Positions 3,331-46,639 of a DNA stretch of 64,000 bases are shown here, in pieces. The number at the start of each line of letters is the position of its first letter. Position 1 is the stretch's first letter. The notes beneath the pieces were generated by a model. It did no database searches. It was not told where the DNA came from and was given only the letters and a program-made list of their open reading frames with translations. The DNA is from Timema cristinae (taxonomy: Eukaryota; Arthropoda; Insecta; Phasmatodea; Timematidae), in the NCBI GenBank assembly GCA_039000515.1, contig JBCFYV010000001.1, forward strand, positions 52,570,410 to 52,634,409, given 5' to 3'. A program made the translations under genes and the position numbers.

Positions 3331-3462
3331 CTAAGTTGTGTTGTGGTAAATTATCGATCTTGAAACATAATCGTCTTCTTGTGGTTTCTCAACGGGCTTT
3401 GTAGTCTCGGTGAAATTGAGAGCAAACTTTAGTTCTGAAACCATTGCTTCCCATGGCGTAAT
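3331..3462 (-). CDS. Receptor last coding exon: C-terminal tail and stop
   Basis: Encodes 43 residues and a TAG stop: [20 protein letters not shown], then [13 protein letters not shown], ending YHNTT. The motif (I/V)(T/S)PWEA..SELKFAL after M4 is shared by arthropod kainate receptors. The acceptor is ttttatttcag, phase 0. The 3' UTR continues below 3331; candidate AATAAA signals on the minus strand occur in the AT-rich flank (for example near 2925), but I cannot choose one. Confidence 0.92.
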   Translation of the reverse strand: MTPWEAMVSELKFALNFTETTKPVEKPQEDDYVSRSIIYHNTT

Positions 3463-6400
3463 CTGAAATAAAAGTGTATTTAAAGTGTGTTTATCTGTAG
3501 GCTCTTCATCATATATCTATGTTATGAACGAAATTATCGCAAATACTCTCGTGCTAGGTTACTTTTAGACTGAGTGTCATAAGGTCTCGAGATATCGGCA
3601 GTCAAAATAAATTAAAAAAAACCCCATCAAACTATAAGTTACTTTTTTATATATAAACGTATACACCAATTAAAACAAATATAATTATGTTGTATTTGTT
3701 CTTACGAAGAAAATGACTGATTTATTTCCATATTTGTATTTACAAAATTGATATTTATATCATAAAAGCAGAAATACACTATAAAAAAGATTAGATTTTG
3801 TTAGATGGGCTAGAAAACTTAAATTCCCCAGGATGATGAAGGGACTGCCTTATATAACCAGAAAAGTATCAAAATGGGGGATTAGGAATTTTGGGGTATT
3901 AGCTATCTAAATATAGAAAAAGCCTATCAGGGTATTTATATAATTAAAATTTGGCGTGCAGGTAGAGGTATTACTAAACATAATCAAACAGGTTTTAAAA
4001 TTTGAGATTTCAAATTTGAGATTGGTGAAATGGGGTAAGAGGTTTTGAAACTTTCAAAACTATTAGAAAACTAAATTTACAAGTTTGATGTAAGAATCAA
4101 ACCCAACAGGAAGCTTGGCGAGATGGTAGAGGGATTTAATATATAACCAGAAAGTCTAAAAATGGAAAAATTTAAAATGGGGCACTGGTAAATTGAGGAC
4201 ATTGGGGGGTGGGGTAGGAGGGGTCCTAAATATAGAAAAGGTATATAATTGAAATCTGGTAGGCAGGTGGAGATATCATTCCAAATAATCAAACTGGTTT
4301 TAAAATTTAAGATTTCAAATTTGGAGTTGTTGAATGTATATATACTAGTATATATACATTCAACGTTGGAGTTGATGAAACTAAGCAGGGGTTTCGAAAT
4401 TTTCAAAACTAATAGAAACAACAATTACAGGGGTGGTATAAAACTTAGACGCGACAGGAAACTTGGCAAGATTGCCTCATAAAACCAGAAAAAACTAAAA
4501 TTTGGAAATTTCAAAATAGGGCACAGGGAATTTGTGAGTATCGGTAGGTTTAAATATAGAACTACAAAGCTACCGCGGAGAGGTGATGTGTTCTATTATT
4601 ACCTTCCTCTCGACAGCGATCTTGCGACAGTTCCAGAGGAACTCCAAGATGGCGACCAGAAAGGCCGCACAGCATCCGACGACAAGTACTACGAACATCC
4701 CTCCAACATTCGCCATGGTCAACTCATTGTTCGCGCCACCCTCAGCCTCCCCACTCTGAAGTCATGAAACAACGGTCACATCAAATTGTTGGAGGTTATA
4801 GAGAGAAACTAGTTACACTTCTACTCCACATTGACGTCAAACATAGTGTCAGTGGCTTAGTGTACGGCCAGACTGGGCGAGCGAGCTTGGTATGGACCAC
4901 TGAGAATCCGTTGAGAGACAGGGCGTACACACTAGTTTTTAATAATGTACTTTAAAACAGTAACAAAGTGAAATTAATACAAAATTTGCAGTTATAAAGC
5001 TGATTGAAATATCAGAATGTGGAGTTTAGAATAAACAGTTTGACATGTCATAAAACATTCTAGTCCATGTGATTGAGTTGGGGTTATATCTATTTTAACG
5101 CATCGTGAGTTCAGATAATATTTGCTTGAAGAGAGAGTTGGAAGGGAGAGTTGGAAGTTATTTAGAAAATAACCCTCCCCTTGTACACCCAGGCCAAAAT
5201 TTGAAACCCGACCTCCACGTCACCCAAAAACTAAAACAAACGAGCGCGAGAAGAAAACAATTGTCGTTAAATTTCAGAACACCCTTGAGAAATATTCAAC
5301 AATATGTTGGTATCACCCTGTGGACAAATATTTTATTGATTTTGACCATAAAAAAGTTTTGCTATTCAAACTGTAAAAACACAATTACCTTTTCTCAAGT
5401 CCCCTACCACCCCACCTTAAGAGCTCGTCTCATTCCACGGATAACACCCTACCGGTTAATTGGCATTGATATGATTGAAGGTATTCTTGCTAGTATATAT
5501 ACTCACCAGATCACATTTACCCCCACCGTTCTTCTTCCACCACTTATTCTTCAGCTCTCCAAGGACACCGTTTTCCGACAACTTCAGCACAGCCCCGCTC
5601 ACCAGGCTACGATATGGTGAGTCTGATACATAATATCAGATGCATCATCAATTACAGCTACTGTTTCTCACAGTTAATGCAATATACAGATAGAAATTAG
5701 AGGAATGGCACAAAATGTATTTAATTAAAATACATACTTGCAGATCTTCTTTGGAACATGTAGTCTCTGTAGTGAAACTACCCGCTTCAGTGGCCGAATG
5801 GTCTAAGGAGTCACTCTAGTATTATACTGGACTGCTGATGACGGAGATATCGGGGTTCGGATACCAGTTGAATCTACTGAGGGTGGATGGTCCTAAATGG
5901 TTTCCCACTATATCTACTCGCAAATGCGGTTATATTATCTCTAAAATTCTCCCTTCCTAATCCCTACCCTATTAGAGTAATAATTATAGTAATGTGTGCT
6001 TAGAACCTGAACGGGTAGTAAGACGTGGTGATAAAAAAAATAGTATCCATGTTTAACTGAAGATATATAATTTTAAAATGGGAAAAACTTAAAAGAATTT
6101 AAATAAATGTGTCAATATTCATAGAATGGCTACTTTTGGTGGGTTTTAAGATTAGCTCTCCATATGAAGTGTTGTTTTAGTACAACAACATTAAAAATAT
6201 TAGTTACGGTATAATTACGATATATATATAAACTGTGCAGTGTAACATTTTCCACAAATAGTTTTCCCAAGTTATATTAATTCATAATAAATTAACCAAA
6301 ATAATTTGTTCAGTTGCATGACTCGTAGTGTTTCCAGAGTAAACAGAGCTAGACTGTAGCTTATTAATTATTCTCAACACTCAGTAAGATCTGGTATCAA

Positions 6401-12400: not shown

Positions 12401-15400
12401 TATACCCGATGATACCTTAGTCACACCTTCTTGAATTACAGTTACATGTCATTATTTTAATTACTACTAATTACATAGTCGCCTATTTTATTCAGATCAT
12501 ACTACCTTAGGTGTCAGCTATATGACGATGTGTTAGGGCTCAGTAAGATTGTATTTAGAGGAAATGTACCAACATTTGTGAGGAGAGAGAGCGAGAGTGA
12601 TGAACCGTTCAGGTATAACCCACTTTGAGTGAACCCGACCCGGATTTAAACCCGATCTTCCCATCATCGGTTTTCCTGTCTACTGAAATAGTGTCGCCAT
12701 TGACTATTTTAAACTCGAAGCTGGTGCACTGACATGTTTCAAAGTTTCACTATTCTCCAAGAGTGGTCAAAACCTTTGGAATCAACTCACTTATCGGAAG
12801 GGCTATTCCGTATCCCTTCTGATCCAAAAGGCCGTTGATCTGAGTGAGCTCGCATCTCCTCTCAATCTCGTACTCAATGGAGACGGATTCCATGAAGAAG
12901 GCGTAACGCCCTTTAGCCTTCTGCACCCTCTCGACGCCCTCTATGTTCGACTCGGCAAACACGTCTGGTTTGGCCTGCTGCATCATCGCCCACATGCGCT
13001 GGTACAGCGTGTGATTAGAGTTCTGTCAACAAACGGGAGTTAATGCTTTTTGGCGGAATGGGTTTGATCACAATTTCACTTTTGACTGCTTCAATTTTCA
13101 TAGAAAGTACCTCATATTACTACTAGAAAAGCAATAGCTAAATCTCCTTTCCTATATTCATAAGCCAGGTCATGTGACCTCCAGCTGTATGACTTTAATA
13201 TTACAAAGTTCCTATATAAGAACACAAAATAATAAAAATTATGGCCACCAATATATATTGTCTAAATGGTCCTTCAATAATTTGCTAGAATAGGGCAATC
13301 GCCCGTAAAATAAAATAAAATGAGTTCTTGACCTAATTTGACCTTATGAGGGTGATAGAGAATATGAGGGTGATAGTGAGTATGAAGGTGATAGTGAGTG
13401 TGAAAACTGATAGTGAGTACTATGGTTATGGTGAGTATGAAGGTGATAGTGAGTATGAAAGGTGATAGTGAGTATGAAAGGTGATAGTGAGTACTATGGT
13501 TATGGTGAGTATGAGGGTGATAGTGAGTATGAAAACTGATAGTGAGTATTATGGTTATGGTGAGTATGAAGGTGATAGTGAGTATGAAAGGTGATAGTGA
13601 GTACTATGGTTATGGTGAGTATGAGGGTGATAGTGAGCATGAAAACTGATAGTGAGTATTATGGTTATGGTGAGTATGAAGGTGATAGTGAGTATGAAAG
13701 GTTATAGTGAGTACTATGGTTATGGTGAGTTTGAGGGTGATGTTGAGTATGAGGGTGATCATAAGTATTATGGTGTGGAACCATTAGAAACACTTAAAAC
13801 CTAGCTTAAGCCTAACTAACCATACCCTGTTGACCGTAGGGGTAATTCAGGGAAATATACCTGAGGTACTAGCAGGGAATCAAACCTAAGACTCTTAATC
13901 TCGTAGCCAAGTACATTGATAGCCACACCATGGGGCCAGCTTCTAACAGTAGTAATAGTAGTAGTATGTTTATATATTTCCAATAAAACTATGAGTGCAT
14001 TAAGTCAGCACTGAAAGTCAAAAGACGAGTGGGCACACTCACAGAGAAGAAACTGGAGGTGGATCCCCCTCTCATGGGTCCGAACTTGATCTTGGTCTGT
14101 TCCGCGAGGTCCTCTGCGCTCTTGATGGTGCTCTCCATGCGAGTGATGGTGAGGAAGGCCGTCAGGTTGGCGGTGTACGACGAGATCATGATGAGGGTGA
14201 AGAACCACCACATGCCGGCCACCATCCTCGTAGACACCGCCCTGCCGACCATAGGGAGGGTGTAGCTCTAGTAGGGGAGCGACTACAAGCTCTAGTAGGG
14301 GAGAGATTATATACTCTAGTAGGGGAGAGACTACAGGCTCTAGTTAGGGAGAGATTATAGACTCTAGTAGGGGAGAGACTACAAGCTCTAGTTAGGGAGA
14401 GATTACATACTCTAATAGGGGAGAGACTGTAGACTAGGGGGAGAGACTACAGGCTCTAGTAGGGGAGAGATTATATACTCTAGTAGGGGAGAGACTACAG
14501 GCTCTAGTAGGGGAGAGATTATATACTCTAGTAGGGGAGAGACTACAAGCTCTAGTTAGGGAGAGATTATAGACTCTAGTAGGAGAGAGACTGTAGACTC
14601 TAGTAGGGGAGAGGCTATATACTCTAGTAGGGGAGAGACTATATACTCTAATAGGGGAGAGACTACAGGCTCTAGTAGAGGAGAGATTATAGACTCTAGT
14701 AGGGGAGAGACTGTATACTCTAGTAGGGGAGAGAACTATATACTCTAGTAGGGGAGAGACTATATACTCTAATAGGGGAGAGACTACAGGCTCTAGTAGG
14801 GGATAGACTATATACTCTAATAGGGGAGAGACTGTAGACTCTAGTAGGGGGAGAGACTACAGGCTCTAGTAGGGGAGAGATTATAGACTCTAGTAGGAGA
14901 GAGACTACAGGCTCTAGTAGGGGAGAGATTATATACTCTAGTAGGGGAGAGACTACAAGCTCTAGTTAGGGAGAGACTATATACTCTAGTAGGGGAGAGA
15001 CTGTATACTCTAGTAGGGGAGAGACTATATACTCTAGTAGGGGAGAGACTATATACTCTAATAGGGGAGAGACTACAGGCTCTAGAAGAGGAGAGATTAT
15101 AGACTCTAGTAGGGGAGAGACTGTATACTCTAGAAGGGGAGAGACTATATACTCTAGTAGGGAGAGACATATATACTCTAATAGGGGAGAGACTATATAC
15201 TCTAATAGGGAGAGACTGTAGACTCTATTAGGGGAGAGACTATATACTCTAGTAGGGGAGAGACTACAAGCTTAGTTAGGGAGAGATTATAGACTCTAGT
15301 AGGAGAGAGACTGTAGACTCTAGTAGGGGAGAGGCTATATACTCTAGTAGGGGAGAGATCTATACTCTAATAGGGGAGAGACTACAGGCTCTAGTAGGGG

Positions 15401-18400: not shown

Positions 18401-21400
18401 GTATTAGTACTCACATATTTTTAAGACAAGTTTTACTAACACACCAGATTAACATACACATTTTAGTATGCACTTTTAAAACAAGCGAATTGATTTGTCC
18501 AAGCTTTTCAAATACAATTATTGCACAAAAGGATATTAAACGTGAAATATTTGTAACTTAACGTAGCTATAAAGCAGAAAGTGTCTTATAGAGATATAAG
18601 TTCAAGTTTTATAAGAGGGGCACGCTAAAGCATTAGTTTTTAAAACACAGATGACTGTAAGCCTTAAAAAGAACATCATTTACCAAGGCATCCTTTTTAC
18701 AAAGCTAATATCAGTGATTAAATATATATATTATAAATAATTTAAAATTTAAAAAAAGAATTTATAGAGCTTACATCATTAAAGCTTGAATTAAATATTA
18801 ATTCTAACAATATAAACTATTGTTAATTTACTTGTTCATATCAAGAGAAAGAATTGTAATCGTGATCATTTTTGAGCATGATATTATGATGAATATCTAC
18901 GTTTTATGTTGGTTCAAAGCTAAAAAAACTTACTTTACAAGTGCGTCTGTCTGTCTTTTAGTCTGTCTGTTAGTCTGTCTGTCCCTGGCCATAGATACGA
19001 AACGGTTTGATGGATTTTGATCAAACTTGATAGTCTATTTAAATTGTTTTAGGATAATAACTTGGGAAATTTTGTTTTTGTTTTGGGAATAGCCATCAAA
19101 TTAAGGGTATCTTATTGATGAGGTTTTTTTTTATGGTTACTAATTTTTCAAAAATTGCTTTATTGATTTTGTTTGGAAATGTATTTATATAGTGTCTAAC
19201 CTCTCCCTTTTTGGATAGTAGTTTGTCCAAGACTAGTTTAGTGCTGAGTGAAATTCTTAGTATTTCCAAAATGGCTCACAAGATTTTTAAAAAAATGTAT
19301 AGGGCCTACGTGGGGAGTTTTCGGCATGTCAAATTAAACTGTTTACTTTTTTTTTTAAGGGGAGTAGAAAATGAGGGGGTAGGAAATTTGATTGCTTAGG
19401 GGTATTTAACTGATGATTTTTTTTTGTTGCAAATTTGATTATTTTAAAAAATGGCTTTGGCAATGTGGCCCAAAACGGGTATCTGTTGAGCTTTTTACAT
19501 TATAATTAGTTATATTTATTTCTAAAAAATATATTTTTTGCAGAATTTGAATTTTAATATAAATTCTAACAATTTTATTCAAAATTGATATCGGAAGACT
19601 CTTTTACATATAAAATAATAATTTATGATTAATTTTAAATGATATCTGTAAATAAAGCCCCCTCTGCCTTATTTCTGACGCCCTAAATATATAATTAATT
19701 AATTAAATGGTGGTAAAGACCACTTATTAAGATCATGCATATCTTATTTTAATTACAGCTGAATATGGACGTTAAGACTACGAAGGGTGGAAATGGCCCA
19801 GGGTTTACTTTAATTCAAGCTTAAGAGGATAATGCACTGAGGTTATAAGGTCAGTAACACCTTCTTAAAAAAACTAAACTGCTCATTCCCCGAGAGCACC
19901 CAATCTTTATCCTGAGCAGTTATCCCGGAAGTACAGGAAGACTGAAGCTTCTTACTGCGGCGCAATGTCGGATCCCTGTTGCATGAGAGAACCAAGGTTG
20001 TGCCAGATACAGTTGTTCACGGTCAAGTTGTTTTCCAGCTCCTCCGGCTCTGGGTTGCAAGGATGAGGGTTGTTCCATTCGTAGGGGGTGATCCTGCAAT
20101 AATCGCCGGCTGTAAGTCAGAAACAAGCGCCCTTCTGGGGTATTCTGGCACTATTTTTATCATCTCCCAAAATAACTTTTTAAAACTATAAATATAATAT
20201 TCATAGTATTCCTAAGATTTAGTACCATGATCGGATCAGAAGTAGAATACATTAAAATAAATGAGAATATCATACAGGATCTAAGTATGAAAAATGGAAA
20301 GTTAATTAAAACGTAATTTATGCTTTCATTCAAATGATGATTAATTACCAGAGTTATACTAAACTGAGTTTCAGACTAAAAAAAAAGCTACACACTTAAG
20401 ATGTGCACCAAAACTTTAAATTTCAAAAATATTTAAGGATGGAAATCATTCGGAATTAATATTAAATGGGAATATTCTATACGTTTATTAATTTAATTTA
20501 AAATTCACACTTATAAAATCTAAAAACTACGTTTAATAGCTGTTATTGAAAAATTGATGCACAATTCAGCAACTGACCAGCTAATTGAGTCTATTATAAT
20601 ATTAATTCCTTATAAAATCACTGAAATAATTTTATGAAGGATTTTAAAAGTAATTATATTATTGGGGCTTATTATTATAAGGTTTAGGATTCTTATTTAT
20701 TTCAGACAAGTACAAACATATAATTCTTAATTTGAAAATATTACATTTCCCTATTTTATTATATTGTTTTATTGTTATTTTATTGGTGAAACCATTGGCT
20801 ACCTTAGAAAATAAGAGATACACCACAAAATGAAGTTTTGATATGAAAAGCAGATTTATATTTGAAAGCATACATTGTAAATTAGATTTGAAATAAAAAG
20901 GAAGACGAAGACTATATTAAACATAGAAATAATACAATCCAAAGTTAGTAAATTAGCAGTTTTCACATCAACAAATATAGGTATTAGAGTGTAATTATCA
21001 CACTCCTTTCTACGGAAATTTTTTTGCAATATCAAGTAGAGATCACATCCAGCTGAAAATGAAGGAAAGTTTTTATTAGAGACACGAAAACTTAAAGCAT
21101 AGAACTAGAATATAGAATAAACATTCAGAATGGATGATTCCCAAATGAAGAATGGCGGAAGACAACATTGCTGAAAAATACAAAACAGTTTGTCACATAA
21201 AAAGGCACATGCAAAGCTAACAGAATAACTTACCTCCATATAATGCAGGATGGCTTTAACTCTCGCTCAACAAGTAGTTATTATTAGTGTAGCAGTACTT
21301 ACGTATGTATTCATTTGAGCGCACAGGCGAACTATTCTGTTTGATTAAGGGTTTTCACGTTGACTACCAAGGGAATATGATGTTCAAATAAATATATATA

Positions 21401-24400
21401 TTGCCAAAATAATACCTTTCACACTGATGTAGTGTATAATTGTCATTCATACGACTACTGACTATCTGTATAGTTCTCCAGGGGAAGACGAGGATTGGCT
21501 TGTTTAGAATGGTTTCATTCTCTGTAGAAGAACAATAATTGTTTGAATAATGTGAGATATTTACGTAGTCTTTGAGTTTTTGCTTAAATGTTGAAGATTA
21601 TTTCGGCTGCAAAATTTCCACATAACAGAACCAAATATTTTACACAAATATAATATTTATGGCCCTTTTTAAAAATAGTTTGTAAGGCTCTAATGACCTC
21701 ATTGTGTCGATGAAACCATAGTTATAAAAGTTATAATAATATAATCATATTTAAAATCGTAACCGGCCCCGTAGTGTAATAGTCAGTGTACCTGGCTACT
21801 AAACTATGGTCCCAGGCTAGATTCCCAGATGGCACATTGGCTATTTTTCCCTAAAGGGGAACTACCCCAACTTTCACCAGGGTTTGGCCAGTTAGTCTTA
21901 AATTAGGTTTAAGTGATTCCACTTATTCCACACCCACATACTCACTATCACCCTCATTTCATCGGGACATTGAAAGAGCATCGGGCGTCCGTTGCACAAC
22001 TTTACAATTGTACTGGATAATATTTCCACTACTGGGCTACGAATGATGTAGCACAGACGCGCATTATTATTATATTTAAAAGCGTGACCATGAGTAGTTA
22101 AAACTTTTACTACAGTAATATATTTCTTAGGTTGAGGTTTTCAGCCTTGCAATTTCCATCAGTTGTTGACTTTTGACGATAATATATTCCATGATACAGC
22201 AGGGATAGTGATAAATTAATTAGTTACCAATTTATTTTATATTGAACACTTTATTATATGATGTTATTGGCTTACTTTTCAAGTTTATTAAGCTCACACA
22301 TTTATATTTGATGAAAAATTTGACAAAACGCAAAAATTTTAGCTTGCAAAATCTTAGACAATTCCTTAGTGAAAGGATGTTTTAAAAATAACTCTCGGAG
22401 ATTTTGAGATGTGAAACACAAACATTTCCCCTTGAATGGAACTAGGGTGGGGGACCTTAATTCTAGATGGCCTAGGGGGTGATTTAAAACCCAGGCCCCC
22501 TTACTTGGGAAGAATGTCACATCCTTGCGCCATGAGTGAGCCAATGGAGAACCATAGACATGTGAGCATGTTGAAGGAGTTCTCCAGCTCTTCTGGTCGC
22601 CGGTTGCAAGGGTGGGGGTTCCCCCACTCTCGTGGACTCGCCCTGCAAGAAACAATTAGTGCACGCGTCTCTAGCATTACTGGGGATCACCACGTTCACT
22701 GAAAAAAACCCAATTAAGAACAGGTACGTAATAAAGTGGCGATCTCTAAGTCAATCTCAATATTTCAGCGCGACACACTCTGCTCTAGTTCAACTAGTTT
22801 CATTTTGATCTGCTATGCTCGAGAACTTCTGCTTGGGAGATTTAATCACATTTCAAAACCAACTTATTCAACTTATTGCGTATGCGCGTACAAAGTGCGT
22901 GCACTGTGAAGCTAGAGACAATTGGACAGGAGTTTTAAAATATCTCGTTGAATGGAAAGAGTGTGCATGGGTGTAGTGAGCTGTGTCACGAAAGAGCACT
23001 ATAGATAAAACCATACATCGTGACAGTGACCTAAAAAAATAAAAACAAAATTAGGTTATATAGGCCCATCGACACAGTTAGGTCATTAGATCCTTTAAAA
23101 AACACTTCGATGGTTAATTGGTCTAGGGAGTCACGCTTAAAATAGACTGCCGATGTCAGGGAGATCAGGGTTTTAATCCCAGTCAGGTATACTGAAGGTA
23201 GTTTTTTCCTAAATTATTTTACAACCTCCCTCCACGCAAATCCTCTAAACTCAACATATCTCATTCCTAAAACGTTAGTGAAATTGATGCATATGCGTAT
23301 AAAGCGAGCGGGTAGTAAGATGCGGTGCTAAAATAACATAATCTAAATTGGTCAGAGGTCCAGGCTACAGATACAGAGGTCCCGGGTTCAATCCCTGGTG
23401 TTCTCTGTAATATAGTGGTTGGAGTTCCTGGCTACAGATACAGAGGTCCCGGGTTCAATCCCTGGTGTTCTCTGTAATAAAGTGGTCAGAGTTTCTGGCT
23501 ACAGATACAAAGGTCCCGGGTTCAATCCCTGGTGTGCTCTGTAATATAGTGGTCAGAGCTCCTGGCTACAGATATAGAAGTCCCGGGTTCAATCCCTGGT
23601 GTGCTCTGTAATATAGTGGTCAGAGTTCCTGGCTACTTATAGAGAGGTCCCTGGTTCAATCCCTGGTGTTCTCTGTAATATAGTGGTCAGAGCTCCTGGT
23701 TACAGAATAGAGGTATCGGGTTCAATCCCCGGTGTGCTCTAGTAATATAGTGGTCAGAGCTCCTGGCTACAGATACAGAGGTCTTGGGTTCAATCCCTGG
23801 TGTTCTCTGTAATATAGTGGTCAGAGCTCCTGGTTACAGAATAGAGGTCTCTGGTTCAATCCCCGGTGTGATCTAGTAATATAGTGGTCAGAGCTCCTGG
23901 CTACAGATACAGAGGTCCCGGGTTCAATCCCTGGTGTGCTCTGTAATATAGTAGTCAGAGCTCTTGGTTACAGAATAGAGATCTCGGGTTCAATCCCTGG
24001 TGTGTTCTGTAATATAGTGGTCAGAGTCCCTGGCTACAGATACAGAGGTCCTGGTTTCAATCCCAAGTGTTCTCTGTTATATAATGTTCAGAGTTCCTGG
24101 CTACAGATACAGAGGTCCTGGGTTCAATCCCCGGCGCTCTCTGTGCAGGCGGGGGTCTGGAACGGGGTCAACTCAGCCTCGTGAGGACAAATAAAGAGCT
24201 ACTTGAATAAAGAAGTAGCAGCTTAGCTTTAGAAAACTGAAATTAATGGCTGGAGGGTTTGTTGTTTTAACCATACGAAATACTCTATCCACAAATGTTG
24301 GCACTATATTCGACAACATGCCACGGCTGATAGGTCAGTATAGCTCGCGTTCGTGCTGATGCAATGGAGTTGTTTTTACGAGAAAGTAAAATATTTTGAT

Positions 24401-27400: not shown

Positions 27401-30400
27401 ACAATATAAGGTAATGAATATTCCACCTGGCCAGCAGGAACAATATCAGCGAGCACAATATAAGTTAATGAGTATTCCACCTGGCCAGCAGGAACAATAT
27501 CAGCGATCAAAATATAAGTGAATGAGTATTCCACCTGGCCAGCAGGAACAATATCAACGAGCACAATATAAGGTAATGAATATTCCACCTGGCCAGCAGG
27601 AACAATATCAGCGAGCACAATATAAGGTAATGAATATTCCACCTGGCCAGCAGGAACAGGATCAACGAGACTCCCAAATAAGCGGTGGCCATGAAGATCC
27701 ACACGTCGAATGAGAAGGGTTTCAGGAAGGAGAACAGCTCAGTCTCCGGTTTTTTTGGTTTGGTGAACAGGATGCTGATGCCTGAAACACGCGTATCATC
27801 ACAAAATCCTACAGGATCTATGTTTTACATTGTATGGTGAATGTGTAACACTGTCTACACATGATCGATTAATGGAGTAAAATGAGTTAAATAGATTGTG
27901 GTTGTGAAACCACCAGCTTCTTAGACAAATTTAAATGTTATCAGCATTTTATTGTCACTTAATGGTGGCCGTTAAAGTATTTTATGTAATGTTCATGTGA
28001 CATAATGTGATTATATATTCTACCAATAAACTATTTAATATTAAATAAATATCACTTTAATTTGTCTGGATTGATTAATTAAAATACTGTCTGTCTTATC
28101 ATATTATAATAGTATATCTAAGCCATCTATTAACAGGTGAAGCACCTACCCATTTAACGGCGAGCATTTAAAATCACGATCTATATTCCTTTAGCCTTGA
28201 AATGTAGAAGTCTTACCTTGACCGATTTAAAAATGGCCCTGTTATATAAGGGGCACCATAGGTTAACATGTTGAAATAAGCTCATTACGTTTACAGTAGA
28301 GGGATTATATGCAGAATGCTTTTAACATATCTGCAATTTTTTTTTTCATTATTCGCATTTAACGCGCACCTTCAAAATCAACTTATTGCATAAACACACG
28401 ACTTATAAACTAACGTAAATATAAATCAGGCACAACACCAAACCTCTTATCGTTAAGTCATTACTGTCAAAGAGAAAACCCACGTTTCATCAATGATGAA
28501 TTTTTCGCCCAAGCTGGGAATCGAACTCGGGATTCTAGTAAAACTAGGAAAACTAGGAAAACACGCTACCAGCTAAGGCAAGGTATCGGGCACCTCTGTA
28601 TCCTATTTCTGGGTGATAATTCAGGTTTAGGACTTGTGTCTTTCTTAGTGGCAGATCTTTTTTGTAGATGTCTTACCATTCTTTCGTGCTAAACGCATAT
28701 ATATTAATTACACTAATTGCTAGGAATGAGGAAGGTTGAATTTAGATAAAGCGTACCCCATTTTCATTCAGATAGAGTGGAAAGCCATTTAGAAAAAAAC
28801 CTTCAATACACCTGACCGGTTGATCTAACCCCGATCTCAACATCAAAAACAGTCCACTATATTGTGAAAATGACACCTTAGAGAAATTCATCAAAAAGCA
28901 GATAGTGTCAGAATTAATCATCTGTCTAACTATTTGAATCGTCTCAAGTTAAATAACTTACCTGTATTGAGGAATGGCATCGTAAAATCACTGCTTTTCC
29001 TCGGTCGTATGTAATGGTGAAGTCACAGATACCAAGGTCAGCTTTCTAAAAAAACAAAAGTATATAAGCGGAATTAACTTTAGTACTAACATAAACGTGT
29101 GATGGTATTCCTGTTTAGATTTCCATGTCCATGTTCCATATTTAAAACAATTCAATTCAAACAATAGTCTTAGCTTGTGTTAGACTCTAGGACAATATTG
29201 AAGGGAAATATAGTCTTATGAATATACTTCTTCATAATAGGATTGTTGGATAAAGAATAAAGTTAGTACTCATCTCAATAGAGCTCTCTATAATAAGATC
29301 AGTAAACAAGTAATGAAGTTACGTGGTCTTTAAATTCTTAACTTTTATCCAGTAAGATAGTAATAAAACTATAGTGTCTCTAACTCTTTATGGTGAATCT
29401 ACTATATTTAAACCCTTTCACGATGCAACTAGTAAACTAGTAGTACATACACCTTGTCAATAATCTCGCTATTTATATAACTAATAGACTAGTGATATAA
29501 CTAATAGACTAGTGATATAACTAATAGACTAGGAATACTAATGATCTTATATGATAGTGATATAACTAATGACTAGTGATATAACTAATAGACTAGTGAT
29601 ATAACTAATAGACTAGTGATATAACTAATAGACTAGTGATATAACTAATAGACTAGTGATATAACTAATAGACTAGTGGATATAACTAATAGACTAGTGA
29701 TATAACTAATAGACTAGTGATATAACTAATAGACTAGTGATATAACTAATAGACTAGTGATATAACTAATAGACTAGTGATATAACTAATAGACTAGTGA
29801 TATAACTAATAGACTAGTGATATAACTTAATAGACTAGTTAATAATGACTAGTGATTCACTAATAGATCTAGTGATATAACTAATAGACTAGTGATATAA
29901 CTAATAGACTAGTGATATAACTAATAGACTAGTGATATAACTAATAGACTAGTGATAATAATACTAATATAACTAGTGATATATAACTAATAGACTAGTG
30001 ATATAACTAATAGACTAGTGATATAACTAATAGACTAGTGATATAACATAGAATGATCATACTAATGACTGGATCAACTTAGACAGTCAAGTGACTAGTG
30101 ATATAACTAATAGACTAGTGATATAACTAAGTAGACTAGTGGAGTAAGTGTCAGACTTCTATGTGCGCCGGGTTCAATCCCCGGTCCGGCACAGATTATC
30201 TGATTCAACTCTTACCTCTAACAGACTCTTGTGAATTGGAATGCAGGCCCCACGTGGTCGGGTTCCACGTTAAATGTAGTCTTCATTCTTCATAATCACC
30301 TACCTACACATTAGCGTAAGCGTTAACCGAACGGGAGTAAGACGGGTGCTAATAATAATAATAATAATAATATGACTAGTGATATAACTAATAGACTAGT

Positions 30401-33400
30401 GAATAACTAATAGACTAGTGACATAACTAATAGACTAGTGATATAACTAATAGAATAGTGCATACCCTGTCAATGATCTCCTTCATGATGCCGTCCCACT
30501 TGCCAGTCGCCGTGTCTAGTGATCCCTGCTTGTTGCCAGGGGCTATTTTGAACTCGTATCCCTTAAATTTGAGCAGCTTGGCGATCTCTTTCTATGAGAT
30601 CCTTTGCAAACCCATGGAAACGTTCATTACCCATTGCATTTGGGTCCTTCCAATCGAGATATGGCATACCCTGAAATAATGGGGAGTGTTGTCTCAAGTT
30701 TTCAAGTTTATTTTATCTAGCTTAACCCGTTTGTTTTGCAAATAAATTCAGACAACCTCATTATTATTGCTTGTAAATGCTAAAATTTATATTGATTGTG
30801 AAGATTCGAAACATAATTTTTATCACAACTCTATTAATTATATGACATAATATATATTAATCTACACAAAGATGTAAAACCTAGCTTTAGATGAACAAAA
30901 CTATAACTAAAAATTAAAACATTTACTAGAAGTGTACTAAAATATCTAAAACTCAGTTCTAATGTAGAAACTCAGTATTTCCGTTTGATGTTAAATTGTA
31001 GTTTGTTTATAGTTTGGTTTATTCTTTAATTATGAAAGTTGTTGTTTTTGAAGTAATGGAGGAGGGTTCATAGATTAATGTTAGAAATAACCTCAATTAT
31101 ATACATATGCGTTGAGGATATAATTGGTAGAAGTCCACCCATTATTTCAAAATCTATAAAGGATTAACACTCACATATTTGATAGATTAAAACAATTTAT
31201 TTCCCTTCTGATATCTGGTTGTTAATTGCTCAACCTATAAAACAAATTAAATTTAAAAAAGAGGGTGCATTACAAGTGATTGTACCAACATGGATGAGGA
31301 AATAAATAGAACATCACAATGTAAACAAAAAATGTACATACAGTTATCCGGAAATTTAAAGTCTTACATTGGCTGAATACATTAAGATGCTATATTACAG
31401 TCTACTTCAGTTTTTTTTTAAATATTCACCAGCTACGTACTCTTTTTGGTGTCTTGGACTAATTGACGTATCCGTTCCATATTTCCCTAAAAAAAAATAA
31501 TCTTACTATCTTGAACTGCACAAACGCTCGTTCCAAATTTTAATAAAGCTTCAGTGATAAGTTAAAAAAACTATTAAAGAGACGAACAGAAGATTTTAAA
31601 AGTCAAAGTCATAATATTAAAATTGCGTTAGTATGCTTATCAAAAACTACTACCACAAAAATAATTCAGTTACACGGTAGGTGGCTCCAGAAATCCTTCG
31701 TGTGCTCAAAGGGGTACGCACCAAATTGGGGCAAATACCGGTGTACACCATAGTGAAACCAAGCAATGTAAGTTTGACACCGTTCAGGACAAATGGAGGG
31801 TACATGTTGACACACTCTATGGTTGAGACTTACAGTCTTGGAGGAGACAATGAAGGTCTTGTTCTTGATGTTCCTCTGGATCTCGGTGAGTACCTCGCTA
31901 TAAGTTTGAGTGTGGTTGAGGCCGTCACCGAGTTCCAAGACCCCACGCGACGCACTGCTCCGTGTGACACATCCACCATGTCCAGAGTGAAGTCGTGGCG
32001 ACGCCCTCTATCGTCGAACGAGATGGAGCCTGTTAACCCTGAGTCTTCATCTGAGAAACATTCTAAATTATAATTGGGCTAGGATGTCGTGCAAAAAGAA
32101 CAGATAAACCAAATCACAATAAACTGAGTCTTCATCTTGTAAACGTTCAGGCCTCATTGATAATCTAGATTAGAAGTCAAAGACAATGCATTAAACTATT
32201 AGTAAATTATGACCTTGATCATGGGATGATTCCTGGATAACTTAGTGGTAAAGTATTGGTGACCTGAGCCAAGGGTTCTGGGCTCTATTCTCATATACAG
32301 GTATAATTTTTCAATTTATCAACATATAAGCTGTATTGGATATAGGAATAGTTTATCAACATGGTCCGTGGTGCAATGAGACAGAAATCACAGATATTGG
32401 AGTCAAATGGGGTGGTTCAACATATCAATTGCTCCAACTTAAGTTAACAATATCTGGTTCTCTGGCTAATTTTTCATGCTAGTGCAGTTTACAGTCCAAT
32501 TTTCATAGAAAGACTAGAAAAGCTACTAGGTCTAGTTTCACGTGTTAATATGTCCAGTCATGTTATCTGTAGCCGTCCAACTTGGAAATTTATATTAACC
32601 ATCAATATTTATAAAATAAATAATATGGTGACAAAAAAGCTTGTATTTTCTAAACACAAACACAAGCGGGTTAGCAAGTTAAGTTGATAGGCATAGATGT
32701 GGGATGGAGTATTTATGGTTGAAGGATTTACTGATAATGTTTTCCTAATATTTTCCCGTAAATTTCTTATTTAAAAAATCCAAATTTTTAAATACAACAA
32801 ATGCAATATAAATGTCTCCAAAGAACGTTAACACAGACACATTATCAATAACAGTAATTACAGATATTTTCTCCCAATCACGTATTGTTTATAGCGTTTG
32901 GTGGTTGTATGTGTTCCTAATTGGATCTTCTGTAGAATATATACTACTTCAATATTAGAATAAAAGCCTTAAAGAATACATTCTCTTTACTTTAGATTGT
33001 ATCAAATGCATATTTTACTGGAACATTTTAAAAATAAAACTGCCAATATATATTTGGATTTCATTTTTAGTATATCATCAATGATAAAATTTAACTAATT
33101 CTAGGTTTAGTTCAATTATTAGCCAACAACTTTTGCCCTCCCTACTTCCTCCCCATTGCCTTCCAAACACACTATTTGACGGATTACAGTGCCCTAGTGA
33201 TTAGTCTTTCTATTTACACAAGTGTAACTTACTTTATTGCAGTTATTTCTCTAAGATTTTACACTATTACGTGCGCGAACACAGATATTTATCACCATTC
33301 ATGGGCATTTGAAATACGAATCTAATTTTCTCACAAAGATGTTTCAAATAAAATTTTGTTTTTACTTTGCTAAAATCACACGTAAAAGGTACATATACAA

Positions 33401-36400
33401 TTAACATATTGGAACAATGTTTATTTCAAATGAGAATATGGGGGAAGGTTAAATAATATCAGAATATCCCCATCATTGGCAATCTACTCTATTGTGAGAA
33501 TAGTGCATTAGACTATGCAGCCACTGAAGTGAGTAGGTAGTCATAAGGCAGGATCTTACCAACTTCATGTAGTTCCTGAGGGAGAACCCAGCCTACAACT
33601 TACCAACTTCATGTAGTTCCTGAGGGAGAACCAAGCCTACAACTTACCAACTTCATGTAGTTCCTGAGGGAGAACCCAGCCTACAACTTACCAACTTCAT
33701 GTAGTTCCTGAGGGAGAACCCAGCCTACAACTTACCAACTTCATGTAGTTCCTGAGGGAGAACCCAGCCTACAACTTACCAACTTCATGTAGTTCCTGAG
33801 GGAGAACCCAGCCTACAACTTACCAACTTCATGTAGTTCCTGAGGGAGAACCCAGCCTACAACTTACCAACTTCATGTAGTTCCTGAGGGAGAACCCAGC
33901 CTACAACTTACCAACTTCATGTAGTTCCTGAGGGAGAACCCAGCCTACAACTTACCAACTTCATGTAGTTCCTGAGGGAGAACCCAGCCTACAACTTACC
34001 AACTTCATGTAGTTCCTGAGGGAGAACCCAGCCTACAACTTACCAACTTCATGTAGTTCCTGAGAGAGAAAACCCAGCCTACAACTTACCAACTTCATGT
34101 AGTTCCTGAGGGAGAACCCAGCCTACAACTTACCAACTTCATGTAGTTCCTGAGAGAAAACCCAGCCTACAACTTACCAACTTCATGTAGTTCCTGAGAG
34201 AGAACCCAGCCTACAACTTACCAACTTCATGTAGCTCCTGAGGGAGAACCCAGCCTACAACTTACCAACTTCATGTAGTTCCTGAGGGAGAACCAGCCTA
34301 CAACTTACCAACTTCATGTAGTTCCTGAGGGAGAACCCAGCCTACAACTTACCAACTTCATGTAGTTCCTGAGGGAGAACCCAGCCTACAACTTACCAAC
34401 TTCATGTAGTTCCTGAGGGAGAACCCAGCCTACAACTTACCAACTTCATGTAGTTCCTGAGAGAGAACCCAGCCTACAATACCAACTTCATGTAGTTCCT
34501 GAGAGAGAACCCAGCTACAAATTACCAACTTCATGTAGTTCCTGAGGGAGAACCCAGCCTACAATCCTTACCAACTTCATGTAGTTCCTGAGAGAGAACC
34601 CAGCCTACAACTTACCAACTTCATGTAGTTCCTGAGGGAGAACCAGCTACAACTTACCAACTTCATGTAGTTCCTGAGGGAGAACCCAGCCTACAACTTA
34701 CCAACTTCATGTAGTTCCTGAGGGAGAACCCAGCCTACAACTTACCAACTTCATGTAGTTCCTGAGAGAGAACCCAGCCTACAACTTTACCAACTTCATG
34801 TAGTTCCTGAGGGAGAACCCAGCCTACAACTTACCAACTTCATGTAGTTCCTGAGGGAGAACCCAGCCTACAAACTTACCAACTTCATGTAGTTCCTGAG
34901 GGAGAACCCAGCCTACAACTTACCAACTTCATGTAGTTCCTGAGGGAGAACCCAACTTACAAACTTACCAACTTCATGTAGTTCCTGAGAGAGAAACCCA
35001 GCCTACAACTTACCAAACTTCATGTAGTTCCTGAGGGAGAACCCAGCCTACAACTTACCAACTTCATGTAGTTCCTGAGAGAGAACCCAGCCTACAACTT
35101 ACCAACTTCATGTAGTTCCTGAGGGAGAACCCAGCCTACAACTTACCAACTTCATGTAGTTCCTGAGAGAGAACCCAGCCTACAACTTACCAACTTCATG
35201 TAGTTCCTCAGGGAGAAACCAGCCTACAACTTACCAACTTCATGTAGTTCCTAGAGGAGAACCCAGCCTACAACTTACCAAACCTAACTTACCAACTTCA
35301 TGTAGTTCCTGAGGGAGAAAACCCAGCCTACAAATTACCAACTTCATGTAGTTCCTGAGGGAGAACCCAGCCTACAACTTACAACTTCATGTAGTTCCTG
35401 AGAGGAACCCAAGCCTACAACTTACAACTTCATGTAGTTCCTGAGAGAGAACCAGCCTACAAACTTACCAATTCATGTAGTTCTGAGAGAGAAACCCAGC
35501 CTTACAACTTACCAACTTCATGTAGTTCCTGAGAGAGAACCCAGCCTACAACTTACCAATTCATGTAGTTCCTGAGGGAGAACCAAGCCTACAACTTACC
35601 AACTTCATGTAGTTCCTGAGGAGAAACCCAGCCTACAACTTACCAACTTCATGTAGTTCCTAGGGAGAAACCCAGCCTACAACTTACCAACTTCATGTAG
35701 TTCATCGAGGGAGAACCCAGCCTACAACTTACCAACTTCATGTAGTTCCTGAGAGAGAACCCAGCCTACAACTTACCAACTTCATGTAGTTCTGAGGGAG
35801 AACCCAGCCTACAACTTACCAAACTTCATGTAGTTCCTGAGAGAGAAACCCAGCCTACAACTTACCAACTTCATGTAGTTCCTGAGGAAAACCCAGCCTA
35901 CAACTTACCAACTTCATGTAGTTCCTGAGGAGAACCCAGCCTACAACTTACAACTTCATGTAGTTCCTGAGAGAGAACCCAGCCTACAACTTACCAAACT
36001 TCATGTAGTTCCTGAGAGAGAACCCAGCCTACAACTTACCAACTTCATGTAGTTCCTGAGGGAGAACCCAGCCTACAACTTACCAACTTCATGTAGTTCC
36101 TGAGAGAGAACCAGCCTACAACTTAACAACTTCATGTAGTTCTGAGAGAGAACCCAGCCTACAACTTACCAACTTCATGTAGTTCTGAGAGGAGAACCAG
36201 CCTACAACTTACCAACTTCATGTAGTTCCTGAGAGAGAACCCAAGCCTACAACTTACCAACTTCATGTAGTTCCTGAGGGAGAACCCAGCCTACAACTTA
36301 CCAACTTCATGTAGTCCTGAGGAGAACCCAGCCTACAACTTACCAACTTCATGTAGTTCCTGAGGAGAACCAGCCTACAACTTACCAACTTCATGTAGTT

Positions 36401-39400
36401 CCTGAGGAGAACCAGCCTACAACTTACCAACTTCATGTAGTTCCTGAGAGAGAACCCAGCCTACAACTTACAACTTCATGTAGTTCCTGAGGGAGAACCC
36501 AGCCTACAACTTACCAACTTCATGTAGTTCCTGAGGGAAACCCAGCCTACAACTTACAACTTCATGTAGTCCTGAGGGAGAACCCAGCCTACAACTTACC
36601 AACTTCATGTAGTTCCTGAGGAGAACCCAGCCTACAAACTTACCAACTTCATGTAGTTCCTGAGGAGAACCCAGCTACAACTTACCAACTTCATGTAGTT
36701 CCTGAGGGAGAAACCAGCCTACAACTTACCAAACTTCATGTATTCCTGAGGAGAACCCAGCCTACAACTTACAACTTCATGTAGTTCCTGAGGAGAACCA
36801 AACTACAACTTACCAACTTCATGTAGTTCTGAGAGAGAACCCAGCTACAACTTACAACTTCATGTAGTTCCTGATGGGAACCAGCTACAAACTTACCAAC
36901 TTCATGTAGTTCCTGAGGGAGAACCAGCCTACAACTTACCAACTTCATGTAGCTCCTGAGGGAGAACCAGCCTACAACTTACCAACTTCATGTAGTTCCT
37001 GAGGAGAACCCAGCCTACAACTTACCAACTTCATGTAGCTCCTGAGGGAGAACCAAGCCTACAACTTACCAACTTCATGTAGTTCCTGAGAGAGAACCCA
37101 GCCTACAACTTACCAACTTCATGTAGCTCCTGAGGGAGAACCCAGCCTACAACTTACCAACTTGATGTAGTTCCTGAGGGAGAACCCAGCCTACAACTTA
37201 CCAACTTCATGTAGTTCCTGAGGGAGAACCCAGCCTACAACTTACCAACTTCATGTAGTTCCTGAGAGAGAACCCAGCCTACAACTTACCAACTTCATGT
37301 AGTTCCTGAGGGAGAACCAAGCCTACAACTTACCAACTTCATGTAGTTCCTGAGGGAGAACCCATGCTGCCATGTGTTGGCGCTGTCACACTTTAGAGGC
37401 CTTGTATGGATGCTGTTGGTTTCGTCCAGTTGATGGAGCGCCTGAGCAAACAGATTCACGGCGTCATACAACAGCGCCGCCTCCAACTGAGAAGAAAGAA
37501 AATTAAAGATAACTTCACATAATCTAATACCTCTAATGGTCTTAGTATAATTAAGTCATTAGTACAAACGTATGTTCAACGTATCAGTTGATAAAATTAA
37601 GTGGTGACCTCGGAGCAGGCAAGACACTCTGGAAATGGAGTCAGGTATCAAAAATGCTTCCAGGCTTGTTTTTTTGTCATTGCATTCTTTGTTTACAAAA
37701 TCTTATTCTTATAAAATGGATAAAATAATTAAAGTATATAAAGAATATAGTCTATATTATAAGTCAAAATAAACTATAAATCATTATCAGGTCTACAGCA
37801 ACTACGAGTTCGAACAATTTCAATTTTAACCAATTTTAACAGTATATTCTTGTGAATACTAAAAAAGGATTTCTCTAATAGTTTTTTAACCATAATTATG
37901 TTGAAAGTAGATATTTATTTCATTAAAATAAATATGGAACAAAGAACCAAAGCTCAACAAATTCATGAATAATACAAATTACTACTCGTTAGGTTTACTT
38001 CAGTAGTGTTTTCAGAAATACGCTGAAACTGCACAAGTGCCAACCAGAAGCGCTTGATTGAGAATTTACTGTTTAAATCTTTAATTGATTGAAATATTTC
38101 ACGACAGTAGGAGGAAGATCTAATATTGTTTATTTAACCTCCATATTCTATAGATATGTATGCACCTCCTATTTCCTTCACTATCCTCTCACACAGCTTA
38201 GTACTTTAAATTCAAATTTAAGTTGACTACTAGGCTTTCGCGACTGCCAAGGGTTTGCAATAATAAAGCTCAATAAGCCGCTATCTAAATAAAAACATAA
38301 TTTGTACCAAAAAAGAAAAAGTTAAGATTACATACCATTTCAAGAATTAGGAAACTGTTATTTGCATCGATGATATTTGATGCTAGGCTTTAAAATTTGT
38401 GGTGACTTTACTTTTATCATTGATGAAAAATGAGTGTCCATAAGCCGTGGTCTTTTGAGTGTTTTTTTCCTTTTAAGATAAAACAACTTTTCACAAAATT
38501 TACACTTATGTTCTGGCAAGCATTGCACATATTTGTTGCACAAATACTAATTCTTAGAATTGATCTAAAGTGAGTAAAGAATAAACATTTGTTATTGTTA
38601 CGTTCAAGCCTTTCCCTGCCAAGAAATAACTATATTTGATATTAATTTTATTACTGCATTAGCGTTTTAAATCGGAACTCTCCTTGGGGTTGTTTAAACT
38701 ATACTGGATTTGTTATATAAATAAATCAAGCTATTAATTGTATTTATTATAAGTAAAACCAAATACACATCACTGTAAACTGGTTCATCTCTTGTCCGGG
38801 ACAACTGCTTCCCTCAACCGACACTCAAAATGTGGGGAGAGCTTTCTCGCTCCAAAAGTGATAACACGATTCCAAAGTAATACTCTCGAAGCTTGATACC
38901 GTCACTTACTAATTCTACACCAATCAAAGCCTTTGCTTGGCCCTTGGTGTGATGACCTAGTGGCTTAGGGTGGCCCGTCCGGTTTGTAATGGGGGAAGGG
39001 GGTAGCTGGTCTTTGCCGGTGACATATACTCCATTCACGGTAGGAATTACTGTCTGAAAGGTATTTTTTCCTACTAATATCCTACTATATAATAGATTTC
39101 TGGTAGGGAAAAAGGCGTTTCAGAAAACAATTCCTACGGTGAACGGACTTTAGAACGAAATATTTCCCACCATGACCAAGCTATCAACAAAGTTGTGCCG
39201 CTAATGGGCCCCCTTCCCTTTCTTGTGAGCCACACCCACATGCACCAAACATATTTACCTTATGTATATTATTTTCTATTAAATATTGATAACGATTAAT
39301 TTAAGTTAACAGTACAACAAACTAACTTGATGGATTCACACAAATAATGGTCAGTTTTCAAATGTCATAGACCTAACCGGTGTATTTCTACAGCGTTTAT

Positions 39401-42400
39401 AAATAAAATAATCAAGATGCATTCTATTGCGGTACATATACAATATCCACGGGACGCACAGAGTCATCAACCGGATCACGTGCAGCCTGTGGGCTACTAG
39501 TTTGACATGCTTACAGTAAGAGAGTAATGTGATAGGTAATCACCTACCTTGACAGTCTCTGGCGAGATGTCCAATTTCCTTTCATACCTCAGCTCTCCGT
39601 ACCTCCAGTCGTATATGGCGTTCTGTACCTCTAGCCTAGTGGGATCAACTAGCCTCAAGGTGGTGATATTAGTCTGAATGTACTGGAACTCTTTGAAATC
39701 CACGGTGTGAGCATCCTGTAAGTATTAATCATACACACGAAGAACAAGATAGCGTTTCAAAGATTGAGACAATTTTCTCATAGTTTTTTAATGCCGGATT
39801 GGAAATGTTTCACGCCACACTAGCCTAATGCCCAAATATAATAAAAATAAGAGCCTAATATGTTTTTAGTTTGAAGTATTTCAATTTGATCTGGCGGGTC
39901 ACGTGGATCGAGCTCGGGGGCTGCGGGCTGTACATTCTTGACTTAAGACGTAACTCTCGTGATAGACTGGAATGTCAATAAAGACGGAGATTGGGGTTTT
40001 AATATCAGTCAGGTGTACTCAGGGTAGAGTTTCTTGAATTATTTTCCCCTCTTCCTCCAAGAAAACACCGGTAAAATTCTACTAAATTCAATCTTACTCA
40101 TCTTTATCACATTATCGCACAACCCGAACGGCTAGTAAGATATGGTGCTAAAAGAAAAAAAATTACTTTATCTTTCGTAAACAAGGACAGACATGCAGCA
40201 GCAGCAGCTTAAAATACACGAGCACAGAGAGGAAGATGAAGCAGGAGAAGGTTATCGCCAACGAGCCTAAGGCCTGAGGCCTAGCAACTGGCATATGTAT
40301 CTATGACTTCTTGAATGCTGTATCCAAGAGTAAAGAGTTCAGAGGTTCTTCCTGTTTTTCATCAAGTGTTCCTTGAACGTCATTGCCTATTTAACTCTGT
40401 ATTGTTTCTTCTGATTTTGTAATAAAGGATGAATGGGAGGCTACCCATCGGGATAGTTTGTTCACCTTTCGGCTGTCCCTTGAGACCTCCCCTGCTGCAT
40501 CTAATTTTCCGCGTGGTTGAAAGGAGCTCGTGACTTATCTAAGAGCTTCTTACACTGTAATATTTTGCCAGGACCAATCATTATATATAAATATGTATAC
40601 TTGATAGTGTGTATACCTTAACATGCATGAAAATTAAAGTATTTGTATGACGCATGTTCTGTTTACATTTAAATTCGAGTGCTCAAATATTTTGGTGCCA
40701 ATAGATAATTGTCAGCCAGCTGAACGTGCACATTAGTAGTATTTGCATGTGTAAACCACGATTGTTGCGACAATTAAAAAATAGCTTTGCCTTCTAGCCA
40801 CGTTCATCTCCAACGTAACTGACCTGCAGGAAAATATTTGCACAGTATTTAAATTTTACTGTAAACCTTTATTTGCTCGACAGTTGGATTAGCATGGCTA
40901 TTGACGCAAGTAAAATATAATAATTGCTTAGCGCTTTAAGGACCGGCTAAACGGAGCCACACAGCACTACATTTTTCCGTTGGAATGTTATCCGGGTTTT
41001 TAAATGCAGGTGACTACATGAGTCCACACTGCACCACACCAGCGGGGACGAATCGTCGAGAGAGCATTGCTCGGTGTGGACCGTGTAGCCAACTACCACC
41101 GGAAATAAATATTCGGGAGCTTCCGAACTTTGTTTTCATGCTAACCAGTAAGTACTGTAGGGATGGACGAAACAGTGATTTTACGATAGTGGTGACCACA
41201 TTGACCTTGATTTTATAAGAGCAGTGATCTCTACCAGTGATTATTCACAGTGATTGGCAGTCACTGTGTCAGCACTTGTAAAACTAGACATTTCTTTCAA
41301 AGCCGTTGCACATGTGACGCTGTAGTCACTGTTCCCAACATTACATACAAGATAAACAATCTTATATACAACAGCTTATTGAACAACCAACATTCTTCTT
41401 CTTAATTATTAACTAACTTAAAAGTTTATTCCTCGTAATTAATAGCTAACTTAATTTTATGAAAATAGGCAAACACCTATGCAAATAAAAATACAAACTT
41501 ATTTTGTAATAGAACTCAGTATATAAATAATATAGAAATGGTTAGAAAATGCGGTGCGGCTCGTGTAGCCACTTGCTAGAAAATGCGGTGTGGGTTGGCT
41601 CCGTGTAACCGTATCTTTAGCCACTTCGTAAACTAGTTTTAATTATTAACTGTAACACACCAGAGAAGTAAGGAGGTAGCTCTCGTAGTCTCCCATCATG
41701 TTGACTTCCCTGGCTTGTCTCAGGATGCTCACGAGATGATCCGTATCGCAGTCTAGCACGATGTGTGTTTCCGAGGACTCGTGGATTTCCTTCAGCACCG
41801 TTCTAGAATGCCACCAGATGTTTTGAGAAACTTGCGTTTGAATTGTTCAATTCATTACTACCTTCTAAAACTATTTAGATTGAAAGGATGAAATATTTGT
41901 ATTTAGAGGAAACTATTTTAAAAATAACAAGAGATTAGTAGGTATGTTTTGTTCCTTGCTTCCGGTGTAAATCTTTGAACAGCCTTAGGAAGTCATATGG
42001 GATATATGTAACGATATAAGAATAGTTGATTTCTTGATAAAAAAAAACTGAAACAGCTAATGGTTTAATTGTTATTTTTAACTTGTTAATTTACTTTGAA
42101 GTTGTTTATCAAAATTATATTTATTGTCATAATCATAATCATCATTATAATTACGTCATCAATTTCGTAATTGATTTTCGGCTGTTCTACACTGTTGACT
42201 ACTCTTGGCCAAATTTGCTTACATCTTTGTACCTTTTTCCGCCAACATCGTCAACTATGTGATTCATGAACTCTAGTTTTGATCTCTTTATCCCTTACTT
42301 ATCTTTTAGATCATTCATTTTTATTTTAAAAATGTTAGAATTATATGTTTATAAATATTAAAAGCCTATTTGTGAGGTGAACCTGTAGTCGGTGCCTTCC

Positions 42401-46569: not shown

Positions 46570-46639
46570 CTGGTTAACATAACATGGCCTTCTTTTGTTG
46601 GCGAGCCTTTCACGAACGTTGTAAATATAATATCTATCA

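Follow-up and report, generated by a model that had tools for sequence, protein, structure and literature searches.

In vertebrate AMPA and kainate receptors, the Q/R site of the pore is set through RNA editing by ADAR2. AMPA receptors also have a matched pair of alternative exons, known as flip and flop, which lie in the ligand-binding domain. Here we describe a kainate-type glutamate receptor gene of the stick insect Timema cristinae, located on the minus strand (~46570 to 3370) of a 64,000-nucleotide stretch of DNA (hereafter the window; C1:52570410-52634409, where C1 is contig JBCFYV010000001.1 of the 1.29 Gb assembly GCA_039000515.1), which contains two pore-loop exons, a first one (A) and a second one (B), between its M1 and M3 exons. 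From sequence comparisons, and with a probability of about 0.82, we consider that these are alternative exons, and that splicing would provide one receptor body with a filter carrying Ala or with one carrying Gln. Vertebrate Q/R editing concerns the same pore position, and its choice between Gln and Arg is also the one found in the exon pairs of Hymenoptera and of the CG11155-type gene described below, but editing changes one codon in the RNA, whereas here a whole exon of 46 codons is exchanged and the residue is genomic. Compared to flip/flop, the arrangement is again an exon pair, now placed in the pore instead of the ligand-binding domain. A further related system is found in NALCN, where invertebrate alternative variants of exon 15 and exon 31 also swap the selectivity-filter residues of one gene (PMC3557258). 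NALCN is however a four-domain channel with EEEE versus EKEE or EEKE filters, whereas the gene described here would encode a tetrameric ligand-gated receptor, with every A-form subunit changed at the Q/R site (described as the Q/R/N site in PMC12226733).

The exon swap is already present in the public annotation of insect genes named 'glutamate receptor ionotropic, kainate 2' or KaiR1D, in the form of unexplained predicted isoforms (e.g., P0053/P0100), and it would work like the NALCN exons at the position of vertebrate Q/R editing. A description of alternative pore exons in ionotropic glutamate receptors was not found in the literature searched, which left subscription journals and supplements outside and where the term "Q/R" was unsearchable. 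In this line, the swap is unmentioned in the accessible portions of PMC5096308 (on decapod transcriptomes), PMC6307864 (on the phylogeny of metazoan receptors) and PMC11188076 (on Neto in Drosophila).

The gene keeps exons for every part of the receptor, in order and on one strand, comprising the amino-terminal domain, S1, M1, pore, M3, S2 and M4 (Table 1), and its best named solved relatives are kainate receptors, for which an alignment with GluK2 was made. With the Pfam family PF00060 (Lig_chan), the M3 exon scores above the cut-off, and exon A alone reaches 29.8 bits, slightly below the cut-off of 30.8. Exons A and B are each 138 nt long, with GT-AG borders and the same phase (one base before the codons and two after), and their splice sites read tttcttgcag/G...CCCAA/gtaagg for A and attattgcag/G...CCGCA/gtaaga for B. 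Each of them encodes the entire M1-M3 linker and pore loop, and 26 of 45 residues are identical between the two peptides, according to a by-eye count from the translations. The exon pair had been put forward in the initial annotation, whose coordinates, lengths, phase, translations, splice sites, count of shared residues and complete linker, pore loop and filter in each exon were recovered on re-checking, together with the proposed junction partners (M1 exon end at 27643 and M3 exon start at 14241). A tblastn search of the window (E 0.01) revealed a single M1, a single M3, a single A and a single B exon, where A and B each match the peptide of the other with E = 1.6e-17, a value that excludes chance similarity. 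Exchanging the exons alters the filter residue at the Q/R site and leaves the Asp at +4 in place. Introns M1-A, A-B and B-M3 measure 5000, 2411 and 5714 nt, and the reading of either A or B continues, after joining, into the AVSTRMVAG of the M3 exon. Since 138 nt equal 46 codons, the frame is preserved with A alone, B alone, both joined or both skipped, so exclusive use of A or B is not enforced by the frame; the splice sites are ordinary GT-AG ones.

Alternative use of the two exons is observed among predicted isoforms of other insects. Isoforms X1 and X2 of Schistocerca gregaria (P0053/P0100), with 893 residues each, show 12 differences, all at 556-598, inside the pore exon. Equal-length isoforms are also found in Cloeon dipterum (X2/X1, P0035/P0099; 12 differences) and Macrosteles (X2/X1, P0073/P0090; 13 differences), again with all the changes in the pore exon; the three pairs have Gln in both exons. 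Moreover, contigs of the size of a coding sequence contain either A alone (P0021, P0064 and P0065) or B alone (P0131 and P0137), and their lengths, together with the TRINITY name on P0137, suggest that they are transcript assemblies. The window is part of a tandem cluster of kainate-type genes, in which the gene studied here is gene 2, and the available Timema models include the window gene with B alone (P0007, a T. tahoe protein with two substitutions in exon B, which is joined to the M3 exon), gene 3 with A alone (P0067) and gene 4 with both in series (P0003 and P0005). What the sequences show directly is the anatomy of the exons, how far they are conserved and constrained, and the isoforms of relatives annotated with one exon each; alternative use of A and B in Timema, how strict their exclusivity may be and any effect on currents are inferred.

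Two protein searches for relatives gave 942 and 1146 matches, and the best 120 of each made up 175 distinct proteins, from which seven were set aside as another receptor gene (CG11155 type). Because the matches are ordered by score, and a model with two loops is scored for each of them, the counts given for the remaining 168 proteins describe the matches listed and not frequencies. We found one A loop in 64 of them, one B loop in 56, A followed by B in 45, two B-like loops in two (Darwinula and Chionoecetes) and none in P0087, which starts inside the loop. Two-loop models are over-represented among these matches because both loops score and such models rank first. As judged from the sequences, the same A/B design occurs across insects and in crustaceans, and the pair that the initial annotation suggested looking for in related loci was indeed found in genes 3 and 4 as well as in the 45 models. 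The idea that the Q/R position is diversified by alternative exons was supported by a conserved pair and by isoforms of relatives swapping only the pore exon, but the choice may not be strictly exclusive, with both exons present in those 45 models.

The residue at the Q/R site differs between the two loop types. Among the matches listed, B-type loops carry Gln in 104 of 105 cases (Cys in the other one), and the 109 A-type loops contain Gln (80), Arg (10), Gly (10), Ala (8) or Cys (1). The ten listed A loops with Arg all come from Hymenoptera (Dufourea, Vespa, Mischocyttarus, Bombus, Apis, Polistes, Venturia, Aulacocentrum, Andrena and Osmia), those with Ala from Bemisia, Laodelphax, Lycorma, Halyomorpha, Rhodnius, Carausius, Timema poppense and one further contig, and those with Gly from termites, crickets, cockroaches, a louse and two further contigs. 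Ala had been regarded as an unusual occupant of this site, but it is not unique, as Ala, Gly or Arg occupy 28 of the 109 listed A loops. Ala is also found in the placozoan GluE1, according to PMC12226733. A separate variant, LMQQSCDFLP, in which the filter Gly is replaced by Ser, appears in 19 of the 109 listed A-type loops (e.g., P0061, P0073 and P0116), including leafhoppers and a caddisfly.

Divergence at nonsynonymous (dN) and synonymous (dS) sites, obtained by Nei-Gojobori counting between genes 2 and 3, gave a dN of 0.24 with saturated dS for the B exons, which together with the values for the A exons (Table 1) points to purifying selection on both A and B. The M3 exons gave a dN of 0.21 with a dS of 0.75. 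A tree of pore exons (48 rows, 46 columns; 18 of 42 forks open) places the first exons of insects in one branch of 21 rows that runs across genes and also contains first exons from an ostracod and a shrimp (support 95/88), and the second exons of the window gene's group in another branch of 13 rows, ostracods included (98/98). The first exons of two crustaceans, Chionoecetes and Darwinula, fall outside the first-exon branch. Based on these branches with crustacean members, the A/B pair is dated as older than the insect orders and probably older than the insects. As both exons of gene 4 have Gln, Ala is probably a more recent change, restricted in origin to exon A of the window gene's group.

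Several observations weigh against alternative exons setting the filter of a functional gene in this insect, and they are best considered with the explanations that they would favour. The A and B loops occur in series in the 45 models already mentioned; these are predicted models, although the phase permits the joining, many of them are joined as exons would be, and named isoforms of Anabrus, Vespa, Bombus, Halyomorpha and Rhodnius are among them. Double inclusion may be real or a prediction artefact. In the first case, A and B would be spliced into one mRNA, and the subunit would carry two re-entrant pore loops in its M1-M3 segment, an architecture that, to our knowledge, is unseen among solved ionotropic glutamate receptors. 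The 64 listed models with A alone, the 56 with B alone and the equal-length isoforms that swap the exon speak against such a subunit, which we find quite improbable. On the other hand, the window gene could be decaying in this lineage, with a pair that works in the relatives but not here. The frame is not open through all the exons, as it is interrupted by three breaks (~42435, ~30590 and ~28995), all outside the pore cassette, and exon A is the faster-evolving copy, more diverged in the window gene than in its paralogues (dN 0.23 and 0.15, versus 0.11 between genes 1 and 3). The frame is nevertheless open in the two pore exons and in those of M1, M3, S2 and M4, and proteins of T. monikensis and T. 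tahoe retain the M3-M4 part. Gene 1 has two similar breaks at sites where the T. monikensis protein is intact, so that the three small breaks of the window gene are probably assembly errors. Decay of the gene in this lineage is, in our opinion, unlikely.

The pair is also dispensable, because the stretch fetched for gene 1 is devoid of B and those fetched for genes 5 and 6 contain a single pore exon each, a situation that would suit an unused relic of exon duplication as the origin of one of the two exons. Both exon types are however conserved across insects, contrary to the decay of one exon in relatives that the initial annotation would have taken as a refutation, and dN is well below dS for both, making a relic highly improbable. 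The same annotation had also considered that the two exons could belong to separate paralogues joined by misassembly, and tandem arrays of similar genes are certainly prone to assembly failure. The window contains, however, one M1 and one M3, and the chance of a misassembly is close to negligible: it was rejected because the same pair occurs in the same order in genes 3 and 4 and in other insects, and it is further contradicted by P0003 and P0005, which are gene 4 models from T. tahoe and T. bartmani.

For the preferred reading of one receptor body with two alternative pore exons, we propose a mechanism where splicing would insert one of the two exons between M1 and M3, with the residue at the filter apex set by the exon chosen, Gln from B or Ala from A. 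Alternative pore exons would set permeation in this way as an exon-based counterpart of Q/R editing. Among the matches listed, B has Gln nearly always and A has shifted to Ala, Gly or, in the Hymenoptera, Arg. Mixed tetramers would grade the difference between both forms. According to PMC12226733, replacing Gln with Ser lowers calcium permeation and polyamine block in GluA2 and in the placozoan GluE1, polyamine block requires the +4 Asp, and GluR6 mutants lead to the expectation that Gly resembles Ser in this block. By homology with known mutants of the Q/R/N site, the Timema A form should, compared with B, show less polyamine block and a reduced relative calcium permeability, and its block would be weakened rather than freed, since both exons keep the +4 Asp.

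Another example is offered by a second receptor gene, which in Drosophila busckii bears the name CG11155 (P0269), with models that carry a duplicated exon encoding M1 and the pore. Using the Arg exon as query we obtained 934 matches, and the best 120 were listed; this set seems to include a close paralogue, and it favours models with both exons because of the query used and the restriction to the best 120. In these listed models, 115 Arg loops were matched by pattern, with Gly at +4 in 115/115, and six more missed by the pattern also have Gly, whereas 104 of 106 Gln loops have Asp at this position. The two residues known to determine calcium permeation and polyamine block would therefore switch together, from Arg with Gly at +4 to Gln with Asp at +4. 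The two exons follow each other in this order in many insect and some crustacean models among the matches listed, and in at least eight of the listed proteins the Arg exon is joined directly to M3, one of which (P0177) holds two Arg exons. The Timema genome studied here also has both exons, on C1001, and the genomic codon is AGG (Table 1), indicating that the Arg of the CG11155-type gene is written in DNA. In the KaiR1D-type gene of Hymenoptera, Arg (MRQGCD) is paired with Gln (MQQGSD), and in a gene related to the KaiR1D type Gln is paired with Ala in Timema and bugs, and with Gly in crickets and the louse. Altogether, it is likely that the Q/R choice, which vertebrates make by RNA editing, is encoded by duplicated exons in at least two kinds of arthropod receptor gene.

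The rest of the Timema cluster was surveyed in 200 kb of flanking DNA (70 and 130 kb on the two sides of the window) and in four further stretches of 10 kb. Genes 3 and 4 contain A and then B, in the order of the window gene, and genes 1-4 have seven pore exons in all, each of 138 nt and with a gtaag donor. In gene 1, a B remnant was not found by tblastn in the fetched left block, nor was a pore motif found between its A and M3 exons. Four pieces of this gene are identical to the T. monikensis protein P0087 (46/46, 53/53, 48/48 and 42/42 residues), and its other pieces range from 82 to 100 per cent, where the low values span exon ends or a frame break; taken by themselves, these identities indicate a Timema genome, that of T. 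monikensis or a close relative. The gate motif encoded by the M3 exon is SYTANLTAF in the window gene and T. monikensis, and SYTANLAAF in T. tahoe and genes 1, 3 and 4. Comparison of the gene cassettes by blastn gave exon matches plus short intronic ones, which may be repeats or regulatory elements.

The cluster also contains some minisatellites that copy exon borders. A 54-bp repeat with 14.8 copies (window 26872-27669) starts within the terminal part of the M1 exon, which it reproduces along with the 5' splice site. In a 44-bp repeat with 86.8 copies (33555-37364), the sequence reproduced is that of the last part of an amino-terminal-domain exon plus the gtaag donor. The third such array of the cluster is found in gene 6 (L031 6619-7539), where a 61-bp unit present in 15.1 copies repeats the pore exon end and its donor. 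Besides these, a 24-bp array of 130.5 copies occupies positions 14266-17386 of the window, about 25 bases ahead of the M3 exon.

Table 1. Coordinates of the exons of the window gene, of its neighbours in the cluster and of the CG11155-type gene (positions in the window unless a locus or contig is given).
Feature	Location	Strand	Remarks
Pore exon A (first)	22505..22642	-	Ala at Q/R site, Asp at +4; A-type in exon tree; dN 0.15 / dS 1.07 versus gene 3 A
Pore exon B (second)	19956..20093	-	Gln at Q/R site, Asp at +4
Shared upstream exon with M1	27643..27781	-	ends LILFLLA + AG; junction ..CTGGCCAG/GTGGAA
Shared downstream exon with M3	14043..14241	-	start ..cggcag/GGCGGTG; Pfam Lig_chan 73.5 bits
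S1 end exon	28960..29045	-	one frame break near 28995
S1 exon	30466..30670	-	reads on to IIDR; one frame break near 30590
Amino-terminal-domain exons	31923..46570	-	edges approximate
Amino-terminal-domain pieces	46570-46400, 45086-44880, 42551-42382, 41804-41661	-	frame break near 42435 (third piece); edges approximate
Amino-terminal-domain pieces, continued	39715-39548, 37489-37334, 32039-31923	-	edges approximate
S2 exon	12789..13025	-	contains GYGIALPI; edges approximate
S2 end, M4 and tail exons	3370..5623	-	S2 end 5623-5507, M4 4755-4600, tail 3465-3370; edges approximate
Gene 1, left neighbour	L011		A-type exon only; tblastn
Gene 3	L019		A-type LMAAGCDILP at 5030-4893; B-type at 3103-2966; tblastn
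Gene 4, KaiR1D-like	L029		A-type LMQQGCDFLP at 3028-3165; B-type at 5172-5309; tblastn
Genes 5 and 6	L030, L031		one pore exon each, LMQQGSEIAP, within the 10 kb fetched for each; tblastn
Arg M1+pore exon, CG11155-type	C1001:18832108-18831833 (L035)		open frame, ..GTFLRQGSGLNPK/gtag, codon AGG
Gln M1+pore exon, CG11155-type	C1001:18820477-18819944 (L034)		open frame, ..GTLMQQGSDLNPK/gtac
M3 exon, CG11155-type	C1001:18812009 (L033)		downstream of both pore exons

No control point of calcium entry through AMPA and kainate receptors is better known than the Q/R site, for which RNA editing is taken as the standard setting mechanism. If our reading is true, a heritable exon pair that opposes Gln to Arg, Ala or Gly, across insects and in crustaceans, would be the same switch evolved by splicing, which would raise the question of which neurons choose which filter.

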